Shown here in pieces: positions 26,837 to 34,855 of a stretch of DNA of 35,737 nucleotides (the stretch's first letter is position 1; each line of letters opens with the position of its first letter). This DNA comes from Eubacteriaceae bacterium (lineage in GTDB: Bacteria; Bacillota; Clostridia; Eubacteriales; Anaerofustaceae). The notes under the pieces are model-generated. The model saw nothing but the letters and a program-made list of their open reading frames with translations, was not told the DNA's origin and ran no database searches. The stretch covers positions 1-35,737 of the forward strand of contig JAAYHF010000045.1 in the NCBI GenBank assembly GCA_012727485.1, given 5' to 3'. The translations under genes and the position numbers were made by a program.

Positions 26837-27469
26837 ATGTATAAAAATGTTATAAAAAGGCTTTTGGATATTATCCTTTCGGTTATGGCGCTGATAGTTT
26901 TGGCGCTCCCCCTTATTTTTGTTGCCCTGCTGATAAAAATCGACGATCCGGGCCCCGCCCTTTTCTTCCAAAAGCGGGTGGGTAAGAAGGAAAACGGTGA
27001 GATCACCTATTTTCAGCTTGCGAAATTCCGCACGATGAAAATGTCCACCCCCCACGATGTCCCCACCCATCAGCTTGAAAACCCGCAACAATATATAACG
27101 AAGGTGGGAAAGTTTTTAAGAAAGACCTCTTTGGACGAACTGCCCCAGCTTCTGAACATATTAAGCGGAAAAATGAGCTTCATAGGCCCCCGCCCCGCCC
27201 TTTGGAATCAATACGATTTGATCGAAGAAAGGGAAAAATATTCGGCCAACGACATTCTCCCCGGCTTGACGGGCTGGGCGCAGATAAACGGCAGGGACGA
27301 GCTGGAAATTCCCGTTAAGGCGAAATTGGACGGGGATTACGCCGCCAAGTTAAGCTTCGCCATGGACGTGAAATGCTTTTTCGGCACCATAACCGCCGTG
27401 CTTAAAAAGGAAGGCGTGGTGGAAGGGGGAACGGGGGAGCTTAATAGGAATAAGACGGACGAAAAATAA
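26837..27469 (+). CDS. Bacterial sugar transferase (undecaprenyl-phosphate sugar phosphotransferase, exopolysaccharide priming type)
   Basis: KRLLDIILSVMALIVLALPLI..., GPALFFQKRVG, FRTMKM, LRKTSLDELPQLLNILSGKMSFIGPRPA, LPGLTGWAQINGRDEL. Confidence 0.94.
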   Translation: MYKNVIKRLLDIILSVMALIVLALPLIFVALLIKIDDPGPALFFQKRVGKKENGEITYFQLAKFRTMKMSTPHDVPTHQLENPQQYITKVGKFLRKTSLDELPQLLNILSGKMSFIGPRPALWNQYDLIEEREKYSANDILPGLTGWAQINGRDELEIPVKAKLDGDYAAKLSFAMDVKCFFGTITAVLKKEGVVEGGTGELNRNKTDEK

Positions 27470-28083: not shown

Positions 28084-28689
28084 TTATGCGTTTTTCTCCT
28101 GCTTGTCTACCCAGTTTTTGAAAGTCACATGACTCACCCCCAAAATCGCAGCCGCGTCCCTTGTGCTTATATTTCCCTTGAGATAGGCTCTTTTGAGCCT
28201 CGGAAACTGCGGGGGGATAGGTATGGGTTTTCTGCCGAATTTAACCCCCCTTATTTTTGCCGCCTCAATGCCCTCCGCCTGTCTTTGGCGTATCATCTGC
28301 CTTTCGGTTTCCGCCACATAGCTGAGCAACTGCAAAACAATATCTGCAATCAAGACCCCGGTCAGATCCTTTCCCTTTCTCGTGTCCAAAAGGGGCATAT
28401 CCAAAACCACCACCGCCGCCTTTATGTCTCTGGTAATGTAGCGCCATTGTTCCAAAATCTCGCTGTAATTGCGCCCGAGCCTGTCAATGCTTTTAATGAC
28501 CAATATGTCCCCCTCCCTGAGATTGCATATAAGCTTTTTATAGCCGGGTCGCTCGAAATCCTTGCCTGATTGCTTGTCCGAAATAATGTTTCTTTTTTTT
28601 ATTCCGAAATTTGTCATGGCAATGACCTGCCTGTCCTCGTTTTGTTCCTTGGACGATACTCGAATATAGCCGTAAGTTTTTCCTTCCAT
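28084..28689 (-). CDS. Serine recombinase/resolvase family protein
   Basis: YGYIRVSSKEQNEDRQ catalytic-Ser motif, DKQSGKDFERPGYKKL, IKSIDRLGRNYSEIL, C-terminal HTH (STRDAAAILGVSHVTFKNWV). ATG 28689 with GGAGG RBS. Confidence 0.93.
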   Translation of the reverse strand: MEGKTYGYIRVSSKEQNEDRQVIAMTNFGIKKRNIISDKQSGKDFERPGYKKLICNLREGDILVIKSIDRLGRNYSEILEQWRYITRDIKAAVVVLDMPLLDTRKGKDLTGVLIADIVLQLLSYVAETERQMIRQRQAEGIEAAKIRGVKFGRKPIPIPPQFPRLKRAYLKGNISTRDAAAILGVSHVTFKNWVDKQEKNA

Positions 28690-29242
28690 ATTTCCTCCGT
28701 ATTTAATCTGCATTTTAATTTTACCAAGAGGGGCGGATTATTTGAAATTCGTTTGAAATAAAAAGCAATTATATGCCGTATATGCCCGCAAAAAGGCAAA
28801 ACCCTCAAATAAAAAACAGGCCGGGAATTTTCGCCGATAAAAGGCGTTAAAGGAAAAGAAAGGAAATAAGCGATTTTAGGGGGGGAGGAATTCGGGTTTG
28901 TCGTCAATGATGAGAACCCGATTAAACTTTAAGAAAGCTTATTAGCCGATAAATCGCTTTAATATCGGGCTATTCGTCAAAAATGCGCTGTTAAAGTCAA
29001 AGATATATATCGAAAAACACCGAACACACAAGAAAAACATGGTAAAAAAAGTTACGGCGCATATATGGGGCGTCACCCGCAATAGGGCGTAAGCATTATA
29101 AAACCATTGCGCCAAAAGCCGTACCATGCAAAAGCAATCATTCGGAAACGACCGCCCCATCGTTTAAAAAATAAAAAATATGTCAGATACGAAAAGCAAA
29201 TGCAAATATTTTCCGTAATTCTCCTTTTATGCGATCCTAAGA

Positions 29243-29320: not shown

Positions 29321-29601
29321 TACCGCAAAGAAAAGAAAATATATTTTATAGTGAATTGCATGGGGGCTTAACGGTGTCTGTAAGTTTATTGTGCGGGGTT
29401 GCAAATATATCCCCAATCAATGACCGTGAAGCAAGACAAATCGTTTTTTATTATGTTTTCGGGCTGTTCGCCGCATTGAAGGATTTTATTTTAAACTTTC
29501 GACCCTTCGCCGTTCAAAGCCGATGGATTTATTTTAACATAACAAACAAAGGAAGGGATAAAGAAGCCTTGCCCTTACTCTTGATGTTTCGCCCTTAAAG
29601 C

Positions 29602-29646
29602 AAAGCCGCAAGAACGCAATTTCCTGCGCTTTTTGCGGCTTTATGT
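29602..29646. terminator. Hairpin/terminator downstream of cyclophilin chimera gene
   Basis: AAAGCCGCAA (29602-29611) / TTGCGGCTTT (29633-29642). Confidence 0.6.
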
Positions 29647-29681: not shown

Positions 29682-30992
29682 CTATTGCCTGCGTATCTTG
29701 ATTGATTTTATAACAGGCTGTTCTTGGGCGGGTATGGTGCCGTTGCCGTCGATGGGTTCGGCTTCGGCGCATATTTTATCCACGACCTCCATTCCCTCGG
29801 TCACTTTCCCGAAGGCCGCATAATCGCCGTCCAAGGAAAGGGTGTCCTCATGGACTATGAAAAATTGGGAGCTTGCGCTGTTATAGGCCTTGGAGCGGGC
29901 CATGGAAACCGTTCCCCTCGTGTGGGAAAGGGGATTGTCGTAACCGTTGGCGCTGAATTCCCCGATAATCGTTTTCTCGCTTCCGCCGTAGCCCGTGCCC
30001 AGAGGGTCGCCCCCCTGTATCATGAAGCCCTTCATTATGCGGTGGAAGGTCAGCCCGTCGTAAAAGCCGTTTTCCGCCAGCGAAACGAAGTTTTCAACGG
30101 TTATGGGAGCCGCGCTTTTGTCCAACTCAATGGTTATTTTCCCGTAGCCCGTAATTTCGATATCCGCATATATTTCGGTTTGCTCGGCGGGCGGGTTCGT
30201 ATCCTGCCCGCTGTCGTCCTCGGGCTGTTGCGTTTCGGCGGGGTTCTGGGTTTGCCCCCGGTTGTCGGTCTTGCCGTAGGGTTTTTGGGCGGAGAAATAA
30301 ACGAGCAACCCTGCGGTCAAAAGGCACAAAGCCCCCGCAATAAGCGAATAGATGATAACCTTCTTTTTATGGGCCGCCGAAGCGGGTTGCGCCGCCCTCT
30401 CTATCCCCTTTGCCGCCTGTTCGCCAAGCTCGGCGGGAATTACTATGCCGGCTATCCTTTCCGCAAATTCTTCCTTTATAATTTGTTCGATTTTTTGATA
30501 TTCGCCCTTGCCGTAATCAACCGGCAGGGCGATATCGAGCTTTTTTGTTTCTTCCTCGGTGAGCCCCGCCGCATTGCCTGCGATAAAAAGGAACCTGTCG
30601 CCTCCGTGTAAATTTTCAAGGCAATAATCGACGATTTTTTTGCCGTCCGAGTTGCTGTCGAAAAAGTCTTCATCGAAAAAAGAACCCGAATAAGCACTGC
30701 GGGAAGTTTTGGCGGCCTTTTTATCCTTTTTCATAAGCCTTTCTTTGCAACCGCTTACGGTTTTACATATGACAAAGCGGGCGTAATCCTCCCGGGAGGA
30801 TATTTCCCCCGAGAGGACAGCATCCCAGGAACTTTTAAACACCCCCGAGGCGAGGGCTACGGCGGGGCCGCTTTCCCTTAAAAGAGTGCGGGATAAATAA
30901 TAAACCTTCCCGATATTTTCTTCGTAAAGGGCTTTCATCGCAGTTTTGTCGCCCTTGCGGGCTTGTTTTATGAGGTTATTCGATGTGGTCAT
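29682..30992 (-). CDS. Chimeric membrane protein: sigma-factor-like N-terminus, single TM, extracellular cyclophilin-type peptidyl-prolyl isomerase
   Basis: N-term LIKQARKGDKTAMKALYEENIGKVYYLSRTLL...VFKSSWDAVLSGEISSREDYARFV resembles ECF sigma region 2; TM VIIYSLIAGALCLLTAGLLVYF; C-term FHRIMKGFMIQGGDPLGTGYGG...GTVSMARS...SSQFFIVH cyclophilin motifs. Confidence 0.88.
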   Translation of the reverse strand: MTTSNNLIKQARKGDKTAMKALYEENIGKVYYLSRTLLRESGPAVALASGVFKSSWDAVLSGEISSREDYARFVICKTVSGCKERLMKKDKKAAKTSRSAYSGSFFDEDFFDSNSDGKKIVDYCLENLHGGDRFLFIAGNAAGLTEEETKKLDIALPVDYGKGEYQKIEQIIKEEFAERIAGIVIPAELGEQAAKGIERAAQPASAAHKKKVIIYSLIAGALCLLTAGLLVYFSAQKPYGKTDNRGQTQNPAETQQPEDDSGQDTNPPAEQTEIYADIEITGYGKITIELDKSAAPITVENFVSLAENGFYDGLTFHRIMKGFMIQGGDPLGTGYGGSEKTIIGEFSANGYDNPLSHTRGTVSMARSKAYNSASSQFFIVHEDTLSLDGDYAAFGKVTEGMEVVDKICAEAEPIDGNGTIPAQEQPVIKSIKIRRQ

Positions 30993-31162
30993 AAGAAATC
31001 CTTTCTTGCTTTAGGCTGTCCGCCGAACTTTCCGTTGGCGGGTTATATGGGTTATGATAGCATATCGGCGGCGGTAAGCGAATAAGCGGAATAATTAAGC
31101 TTTGCGGTTTTTATTGCTTGGGGCGGGGAAGCGGCATTATAATGACAGCGGAAAACCCGAGG

Positions 31163-31469: not shown

Positions 31470-32573
31470 ATGAAAAACAGACCCAAAAGAAAAAAGACCC
31501 TGACGATCATTGCCTTGGCGGTTATACTCGCCTTGGGGGGAGTGGGCGGCTATGCCCTTTACGGCAACGCCCAAATGAAAAAGCTCCCCGCCCTCAGCGC
31601 CGAAGAAGCCTTGGACTACACGCTGAAGGGGAACGGGGAGGGGATAATCGCCCTTGGGGTAATAAGCGCATCAAAGCCTTCCTTCAAGGTTTACGGCGAG
31701 GACAGCCGCATAATCGAAGGGGGAGAGGAGAAAATATACGAAATAGGCTCTCTGACAAAGACCTTCACCGCCGCTTTGATTTGCAGGGCGGTTGAGGAAG
31801 GCAGGCTCGACCTCGATAAGACGGCGGATATTTACCTGACCGATTATTCGGAGGAAATCCCTTTTAAGGAAAATTCCCTTCCCACGATAAAACAGCTTCT
31901 AATCCACACCGCAGGTTTGAAGAATTATTATTTCGAGTTGCCCATGCTCAAAAACCCCTTCACGGGTTACAGCGATTACAGCGGTATTACGAAAGAAACA
32001 GCCCTGCGAAGGCTCGGCGGGATAGATTTTAAAAAGCGTGAATACCCCTTCGAATATTCGAACTTCGGTTATGCTATCTTGGGAATTATTTTGGAGGAAG
32101 TTTACGATAAGCCCTACGGGGAGCTTTTGGGCGATTATCTGAAAGAGTGCGGCCTTATATCCACCCGCATTTGTGAGAACACAAGCTTCGACAAGCAGTG
32201 GCTCTGGCAGGCAAGCGACGCCTATATCCCCGCAGGGGCGATCACCTCGAATATCGAAGATATGCTCAAATATGCCCAAATCATGCTCAAGGGCGGCGAG
32301 ATTACGACGAAGCTTGCGTATATTAACGCCACCACCGCCCAAAACGAAAAAATAGAAATCAGAATGGATTCCATGGCCTACGGCTGGATAATCGACGAGA
32401 AAAACAACATCGTCTGGCATAACGGCGGCACCGATTACTTCAACTGCTATTTGGGGCTGGATATTGAAAATCAAAACGCCGTGGTGATTCTCTCGAATTG
32501 CAAACCTTCCTACCGCATTCCCGCCACGGTGGTGGGCGTTAAAATGCTTTTGGAATTAAAACGCTCCCGATAA
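31470..32573 (+). CDS. Serine hydrolase of the beta-lactamase/PBP4-like family, membrane-anchored or secreted
   Basis: N-terminal signal/TM; SLTK (SxxK) in YEIGSLTKTFTAALICRAVEEGRLDL; YSNFGY (YxN); WHNGGT. Confidence 0.9.
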   Translation: MKNRPKRKKTLTIIALAVILALGGVGGYALYGNAQMKKLPALSAEEALDYTLKGNGEGIIALGVISASKPSFKVYGEDSRIIEGGEEKIYEIGSLTKTFTAALICRAVEEGRLDLDKTADIYLTDYSEEIPFKENSLPTIKQLLIHTAGLKNYYFELPMLKNPFTGYSDYSGITKETALRRLGGIDFKKREYPFEYSNFGYAILGIILEEVYDKPYGELLGDYLKECGLISTRICENTSFDKQWLWQASDAYIPAGAITSNIEDMLKYAQIMLKGGEITTKLAYINATTAQNEKIEIRMDSMAYGWIIDEKNNIVWHNGGTDYFNCYLGLDIENQNAVVILSNCKPSYRIPATVVGVKMLLELKRSR

Positions 32574-33286: not shown

Positions 33287-34855
33287 TTAATCCTTTTCTC
33301 CTTTAGTTCCTTTTTCGGCCATGGCCTTTTCCAGCTTGGCTATCAGCGAACGCAAAACCCCGGCGGCATATTTTTTCATGGCCTGACTGCTTTTGAAGAA
33401 GGGAACGCTTCGCCGCAGATACTCCGCAAAGGCATCTACCAAATTGCGCTCCGAAACCTCATAAATATTGAAAGGGGAGGCGTTCATGGCGAGTATGGCG
33501 CAATGCCCCTCCTTCACATATACCATGGTGGGGTCCCTGTCCTCCGCCCTTCGGAAGGCGACATTATAATTTTGAGTATGCTCCAAAAGATAGAGAATAC
33601 TCTTTAGCTGGGCAAGATAGCCCGAGGGGGTGTAAAACTGCGGGGATATGCCCAAAGCGCCCGCGGCGGGAATGGGAACTTTCCCTTCCGTAATTTCCGA
33701 AACCTCCGCCAAGCGGATTATATCCGTAAACCTGTATTCCTCAAGGGTTTCCTTGAAATATCTGTATCTTTGAGCGAAGGTGGAAAGAAATAACTGCTTT
33801 TCGCGGGGTGAGGCGGCTTTCAGCGAGTTGGCGGCTTCCCAGGGGAGGGTGATGAAGGAAAGCTCACCGCTTCGTTGTATGCACTCGGCGGGGAAGCTTT
33901 CGAAATTAATCATGGCTTTGTGCATCGCTTCGGAATCCCTCAGCGCCCCGTATACCTTCATTATGGGCTCGCAAAGGGAAAGATATTTTTCGAATTGCTC
34001 CTTTATGGCCCCTGTCACCTTTTCTTCGGTGGTGAAAAAAGTGGGCGTCTCCTCGGTTATCACCCCTCCCACGGAAAAGGCGAATATGGCCGCGGGGCAA
34101 TCCGCCTGAAGTATCGTCACCCTGTTGAGGTTATCCCGCATTCTTTTATAATAATAGGAAGCGGCTTTGCCCGTCATATAAAGGGGAAACCAACGGTTCA
34201 GGGAATCGAAGGCCTGATCCATGTCCCTTATGGGGGCGGCTATCCTCCTGAAAAAGCAACCCTTTTGCGCCAAGGCCGCCATGGTGCTTTGAAGCTGTTG
34301 CGAATAACCGGGAGATTGGGTCACCCAATCCATTTCCTCATCGGAAAGCACATTTATTACATAGCCTTTCCCCCGGCTCAATACATGGTCCAAAAAGGTA
34401 CTCACCGCCTCCCGCCGCCCCTGATTGCCGTAAAAGGCGAGAAAACCGCCCTTTTGCGCGGGTGCGGGGGAAAGGACTTCCGCAGGGGGCTTTTCGTTTG
34501 GGGCAACTGAGGAAAATTGCCTCAAAAAATCCTCCGCCCGCCTTGAAACCGCGTCCGGGGAGGAAGAAGCGAGCCATTCGCATATCAGCCCGGTCAGCTC
34601 CTGCTCGTCTGCGGCATTTTTCATCGCCTCGTTATCGGCGGAATGGGCCAAAGCCTCCCTTTGCAAAGCGCCTGTGCATCTTTGGGCGAAAAAGCGGGAT
34701 ATTATCATAAGGCTTTCCCTGTTTTTCGGCGTGTCCCTCCTGCCTCGGCGCATTTTGCTTATCTGCGGCGCGGTTACGCTCAAGGCCTCCGCCAAATCCT
34801 TGCCCCGGGCGGCGGTAAGTTCAAATAATATGTTCAGTTTTTCATCGAATTGCAT
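33287..34855 (-). CDS. Large HTH-containing putative transcriptional regulator
   Basis: N-terminal Cro/C1-like HTH (RGKDLAEALSVTAPQISKMRRGRR) with ~450-aa C-terminal region of no recognised family; stop abuts the VOC gene start. Confidence 0.75.
   Translation of the reverse strand: MQFDEKLNILFELTAARGKDLAEALSVTAPQISKMRRGRRDTPKNRESLMIISRFFAQRCTGALQREALAHSADNEAMKNAADEQELTGLICEWLASSSPDAVSRRAEDFLRQFSSVAPNEKPPAEVLSPAPAQKGGFLAFYGNQGRREAVSTFLDHVLSRGKGYVINVLSDEEMDWVTQSPGYSQQLQSTMAALAQKGCFFRRIAAPIRDMDQAFDSLNRWFPLYMTGKAASYYYKRMRDNLNRVTILQADCPAAIFAFSVGGVITEETPTFFTTEEKVTGAIKEQFEKYLSLCEPIMKVYGALRDSEAMHKAMINFESFPAECIQRSGELSFITLPWEAANSLKAASPREKQLFLSTFAQRYRYFKETLEEYRFTDIIRLAEVSEITEGKVPIPAAGALGISPQFYTPSGYLAQLKSILYLLEHTQNYNVAFRRAEDRDPTMVYVKEGHCAILAMNASPFNIYEVSERNLVDAFAEYLRRSVPFFKSSQAMKKYAAGVLRSLIAKLEKAMAEKGTKGEKD

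Follow-up and report, generated by a model that had tools for sequence, protein, structure and literature searches.

A predicted clostridial membrane protein that joins a degenerate ECF sigma-like domain to a cyclophilin

The window analyzed here, a 35,737-nucleotide stretch of DNA from a Eubacteriaceae bacterium, encodes a protein in which a degenerate derivative of an ECF sigma factor precedes a single predicted transmembrane (TM) helix and a cyclophilin. The N-terminal domain descends from an ECF sigma factor and comprises region 2, an inter-domain linker and region 4. It is referred to here as a “pseudo-sigma” rather than a sigma factor, since the fold is kept and the domain is still under selection while the sigma signature is lost. 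There is about an even chance that the protein is a foldase anchored in the membrane and displayed outside the cytoplasm, with a pseudo-sigma on the cytoplasmic side that works through protein contact and not by directing transcription.

The gene is a single uninterrupted ORF of 436 amino acids plus stop, read from the minus strand (Table 1). From the N-terminus, the product consists of a sigma-like domain (residues ~1–173), a basic juxtamembrane segment, the TM helix (~212–234), an acidic, Pro/Gln-containing linker and the cyclophilin (~274–436). An earlier note on this DNA had described the same ORF, with its strand unstated, and had recognized in it a TM helix, a Pro/Gln/Glu-rich linker and a complete cyclophilin; hydropathy, the sequence itself and a match to PF00160, respectively, agree with that description. 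A hairpin resembling an intrinsic terminator follows the gene, and the number of terminator-like sites in the region is not above chance in a simple scan.

Table 1. Features of the gene and its product, with positions counted along the window
Feature	Residues	Position	Strand	Basis
Whole ORF, pseudo-sigma/TM/cyclophilin protein		29682..30992	-	Same architecture in 16 other genomes
Shine-Dalgarno-like AAAGGA, 6 nt 5′ of the ATG start		30999..31004	-	Direct sequence reading
Sigma region 2-like four-helix domain	1–97	30702..30992	-	SigW profile match, hhalign, AlphaFold, Foldseek
Family-specific inter-domain linker motif, consensus KDxKAFRxPxxxNF, here KDKKAAKTSRSAYS		30687..30737	-	Family alignments
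Sigma region 4-like domain	117–173	30474..30644	-	Recognition helix degenerate; helix-turn-helix ~3 residues shorter
Juxtamembrane segment, IVIPAELGEQAAKGIERAAQ..KKK	186–211	30360..30437	-	Weakly anti-sigma-like
Single TM helix	~212–234	30291..30359	-	Hydropathy scans; N-in/C-out orientation predicted by the positive-inside rule
Pro/Gln/Glu-rich linker, predicted extracytoplasmic	235–273	30174..30290	-	Sequence; pLDDT < 50 at 236–269
Cyclophilin (peptidyl-prolyl isomerase) domain	274–436	29685..30173	-	PF00160; active-site positions kept
Intrinsic-terminator-like hairpin, 3′ of the gene		29600..29643	-	8-bp stem, T-rich tail; fold z = -4.0

A chimeric assembly or annotation artefact could in principle fuse two genes in this way, and the source genome is a draft of 230 contigs. 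However, a search for the same architecture elsewhere returned 16 further proteins in separately assembled clostridial genomes, and their N-terminal halves, which are the most variable part of the protein (about 17–29% identity to that of the window protein), are nonetheless collinear with it. Local misassembly is excluded by this recurrence, and an artefact of either kind is extremely improbable. The protein is real and recurs in gut bacteria.

Recognition of the sigma-like domain required a family profile, because Pfam and PDB searches with the window protein as sole query yielded cyclophilin matches and no sigma match. NCBIfam sigma models matched the window protein weakly (best E 1.2e-4). 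The family was gathered by a genome scan, with 15 members extracted and a 16th added from a further clostridial genome (G377); one member (L009) lies at the start of a contig and is without the first part of region 2. Searched against the PDB, the N-terminal profile of the family matched SigW (5wuq) with E=9.8e-9 over profile positions 4–163, thereby covering regions 2 and 4, and further matches included 8z6g (sigma factor AlgU), SigH (4.5e-8) and SigE. In the reciprocal direction, a profile built from clostridial ECFs only recovered family members L017 (2e-15) and L006 (1e-14) as well as the window protein (6.5e-4). Alignment of the family to the clostridial ECF alignment with hhalign gave a probability of 99.5% (P 4e-22) and was collinear over positions 2–173, as compared with 2.0% for a reversed ECF alignment and 0.3% for a column-shuffled one. 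The family-specific motif KDxKAFRxPxxxNF occupies the place of the inter-domain linker of sigma factors.

Structure prediction points the same way. The AlphaFold model of residues 1–191 has a pLDDT of 82.6, with region 2 helices at residues 4–12, 16–38, 41–60 and 67–89. When the predicted fold was compared with the PDB using Foldseek, nearly all of the best matches were sigma factors, led by SigW-RsiW (three rows, probability 1.00, best E 0.035) and followed by AlgU-MucA, SigG1 and SigK, with SigE-RseA at rank 8. As these E-values are modest, it is the profile evidence that carries the case for sigma ancestry. The first ~90 amino acids had been likened to ECF region 2 in the earlier note, and the family profile, hhalign and Foldseek all uphold that assignment. 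The segment that the note took for a degenerate region 4, IVDYCLENLHGGDRFLFIAGNAAGLTEEETKKLDIALPV, is found at about residues 120–158, and its identification is likewise sustained by the family profile, hhalign and the residue comparison described below. The structural and profile check of residues 1–190 suggested there thus produced sigma matches, both with the family profile and with the AlphaFold model in Foldseek.

The extent of degeneracy was gauged by comparing the fusion family, residue by residue, with 31 ECFs of Clostridia, the same class. Within the core-binding signature of region 2.2 (DAxDxxQExF), the Gln found in 97% and the Glu found in 84% of the ECFs are both absent from the family. 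In regions 2.3 and 2.4, Trp falls from 97% of the ECFs to 0 in the family, Asn from 100% to 6%, and Arg from 81% to 0. The recognition helix of region 4 has likewise lost, throughout the family, two Arg residues (94% and 81% of the ECFs), mostly replaced by Ala, and a neighbouring Glu is present in 75% of the family. Altogether, 94–100% of the family have lost the residues that ECFs conserve at key positions for core binding, for the -10 element and for recognition by region 4. Buried positions, on the other hand, persist, and several structural ones are retained in most members (Ala 100%, Leu 100%, Ala 94%, Phe 81%, Cys 94% and, in region 4, Leu 81% and Arg 88%). According to the alignment, the region-4 helix-turn-helix of the window protein is also shortened by about three residues. 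The family cannot be told apart from working ECFs by the isoelectric point or net charge of its N-terminal domain, and charge is therefore not used here as an argument about that domain as a whole.

Despite these losses, both sigma-like regions are under purifying selection, and the domain is not debris. For the close pair L003/L017, dN/dS was 0.14 in region 2, 0.12 in region 4 and 0.04 in the cyclophilin. Other pairs for which it could be computed gave mostly 0.06–0.36, with one value of 0.48 (pairwise NG86 estimates, some of which are saturated).

Hydropathy places the start of the TM helix at about residue 212, directly after a Lys-rich stretch, and the AlphaFold model has an unbroken helix over residues 187–235. 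Because the Lys-rich stretch precedes the helix, the positive-inside rule would put the cyclophilin outside. Close relatives, most of which carry the same kind of cyclophilin behind a lipoprotein-type signal or short TM segment, also support this location. The protein is thus probably bitopic, with an extracytoplasmic cyclophilin and a cytoplasmic sigma-like domain. The juxtamembrane segment scored slightly above controls when compared with the pre-TM segments of clostridial anti-sigma factors (p about 1e-3), with near-zero bits, and no anti-sigma family was among the Pfam families listed. Given so marginal a resemblance, an anti-sigma identity is not claimed for it.

The cyclophilin domain matches PF00160 at residues 276–413 with E=1.2e-44 and 152.8 bits (Pfam cut-off 21.7). 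At the active-site positions, taken here to correspond to the numbering of human cyclophilin A, R55, F60, Q63, A101, Q111, F113 and L122 are identical in 16/16 aligned members and M61 is kept in 15/16, while most members have Ser or Phe in place of W121, and Tyr replaces H126. Judging from these residues, the domain is probably a catalytically competent foldase. Its likeness to the extracytoplasmic lipoprotein cyclophilins of Lachnospiraceae and Oscillospiraceae reaches about 73% identity over the domain, but the latter are carried on a lipoprotein-type signal or short TM segment and are without a sigma-like domain. Two further Clostridia have larger cyclophilin ORFs (L143 and L144), which proved to encode multidomain proteins of the signal-peptide type, not sigma fusions.

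Distribution of the family is patchy. It was found in 2/391 Clostridia, 1/67 genomes of the order and 1/398 genomes of a phylum sample, and the one further genome searched within the genus has no member. The same profile at a looser threshold detected ECF-type proteins in 215/391 Clostridia. No conserved partner gene (anti-sigma factor, second sigma factor or protease) occurs beside the 17 family members, whose shared neighbours are limited to the close-relative pairs L003/L017, L008/L036 and L018/L019; one additional neighbourhood similarity, between L006 and L012, is not adjacent to the gene. Nor did the cyclophilin loci contain any pair of an unfused sigma factor with a cyclophilin-bearing anti-sigma factor, and the clear ECF genes in L010, L066, L071 and L065 do not adjoin the cyclophilin. 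In a tree of cyclophilin domains, many branches of which are unresolved, the fused and unfused forms are interleaved. The N-terminus shared by the fused forms is most simply explained by one origin and repeated loss; the cyclophilin tree gives no proof of this. In Pseudoflavonifractor sp. An44, the second of two nearby cyclophilin genes (L073, 6296–7006) retains about 22 residues from the start of the sigma-like domain (MATQLEQAQRGQRKAMLEVYE); the remainder is gone, as is the TM segment.

A rival account treats the sigma-like part as a relic. An old fusion of the sigma/anti-sigma type would have given its TM helix to a cyclophilin outside the cell. The sigma-like domain would now do no more than fold and assist in anchoring or inserting the protein, whose function would be that of the many lipoprotein or TM-anchored cyclophilins in related genomes. 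The plain lipoprotein or TM-anchored state of most close cyclophilin relatives, the interleaved tree, the nearly vanished domain in Pseudoflavonifractor, the unconserved neighbours and the patchy distribution all agree with this account, and a loosely constrained anchor also fits the variable N-terminal half. Against it stand the purifying selection on both sigma-like regions, the family-specific KDxKAFRxPxxxNF motif and the near-invariant core positions. The relic account is possible but somewhat unlikely.

Known systems supply precedents for each element. Fused sigma/anti-sigma ECFs include IutY (ECF243), SCO4117 (ECF52) and members of ECF48 and ECF53, in which the sigma domains are considered active after proteolysis (PMC8999054). 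Like these, the window protein combines an ECF-like N-terminus, a TM helix and a presumably extracytoplasmic part in one chain, and SCO4117 also has a Pro-rich extracytoplasmic stretch (PMC8999054). Comparable fusions exist within the same bacterial class, namely L092 322–2112 (-), L131 875–2086, L132 1097–2356 (-) and L133 347–2455 (-), each of which encodes an apparently intact ECF with a C-terminal hydrophobic segment and an ectodomain in one ORF. These share the overall design but differ in that their sigma residues look intact (with Pfam sigma matches in L092) and in their ectodomains, some of which are SH3-like and none a cyclophilin. Another clostridial gene, L024 3606–6050 (+), is an 815-aa ORF for a zinc ribbon, a Hanks-type Ser/Thr kinase, a TM helix, an acidic Pro-rich linker and a cyclophilin. 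It resembles the window protein in placing a cytoplasmic signalling-type module before the TM helix, an acidic Pro-rich linker and the same type of cyclophilin. The module itself differs, being made up of a zinc ribbon and a protein kinase, and L024 is the single example seen. Since both kinds of fusion exist, the two halves of the design have been recombined in Clostridia.

This shared order of sigma domain, TM helix and ectodomain, seen in the known sigma/anti-sigma fusions (PMC8999054) and in the four clostridial ORFs with apparently intact sigma residues, raises the prospect of a membrane-tethered, working ECF sigma factor that is released by regulated proteolysis upon sensing unfolded protein, in the manner of IutY or SCO4117. 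However, core-binding, -10 and recognition-helix residues are lost across the family, and the window protein has a shortened region-4 helix-turn-helix and no Pfam sigma match. The sigma part would therefore be unlikely to be active if released, and the window protein further departs from the IutY and ECF52 type in having a foldase ectodomain and no recognizable zinc anti-sigma domain. A tethered working sigma factor is accordingly unlikely. The earlier note had offered two proposals, and of these the sigma-derived protein-interaction module is favoured; the lost signature residues and the shortened helix-turn-helix speak against a module able to direct transcription on its own.

Another close parallel to the pseudo-sigma is PhyR of the alphaproteobacterial general stress response, a sigma mimic that acts as a decoy by binding NepR (PMC8103513). 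The sigma-like domain of PhyR likewise keeps the ECF fold, and its regions for promoter and core binding are degenerate. PhyR differs in being a response regulator with a receiver domain, and the gene for its partner NepR usually lies at the same locus (PMC8103513). Neither a receiver domain nor a neighbouring NepR-type anti-sigma gene is present here. Because residues for binding core RNA polymerase and promoter DNA are lost and the fold is kept, protein-protein contact is the most likely role for the pseudo-sigma. The cyclophilin foldase would be displayed outside the cell on a flexible linker and held by one TM helix, with the pseudo-sigma inside. The latter could serve as a decoy that captures a partner in the cytosol, for instance an anti-sigma factor. 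Alternatively, it could remain compact and be held by the protein's own juxtamembrane segment (“self-masking”), on the model of the sigma/anti-sigma fusions (PMC8999054). Several observations count against contact as the role: the absence of a conserved adjacent partner gene, which is often present in sigma-mimic systems, the variable N-terminal half, the patchy distribution, the interleaving of fused and unfused cyclophilins, the marginal anti-sigma resemblance and the weak Foldseek E-values. More doubtful still is a one-protein switch, in which a ligand-bound or busy cyclophilin would alter a pseudo-sigma that titrates an anti-sigma factor, or one that is unmasked by proteolysis, and so report the folding load outside the cell to transcription.

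Each element of the protein has a precedent, and no description of a sigma/cyclophilin fusion was found in the open-access literature; nor did that literature yield an account of a degenerate sigma paired with an extracellular foldase. In the literature consulted, the documented use of such a domain as a protein mimic is that in PhyR, and the clostridial family would be a second, unrelated case. It would also give gut bacteria a very simple means, with a single gene, of coupling gene expression to folding in the envelope. Were the pseudo-sigma a mere anchor, the family would still illustrate that proteins of the sigma/TM/ectodomain type can be put to another use once their sigma function is lost.

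In the window, the gene is flanked on the left by a resolvase gene (28084–28713, minus strand) and on the right by a gene for a serine hydrolase of the PF00144 beta-lactamase family (31470–32573, plus strand), both of which are unrelated to it. Further to the right, a 522-aa ORF (33287–34855, minus strand) has no Pfam match at E 1e-5 and a start that looks helix-turn-helix-like by eye. On the other side, a NusG-type protein (PF02357; 25725–26348, plus strand) is encoded two genes upstream of a bacterial sugar transferase (26837–27469), an arrangement that resembles that of specialized NusG paralogues near polysaccharide genes.
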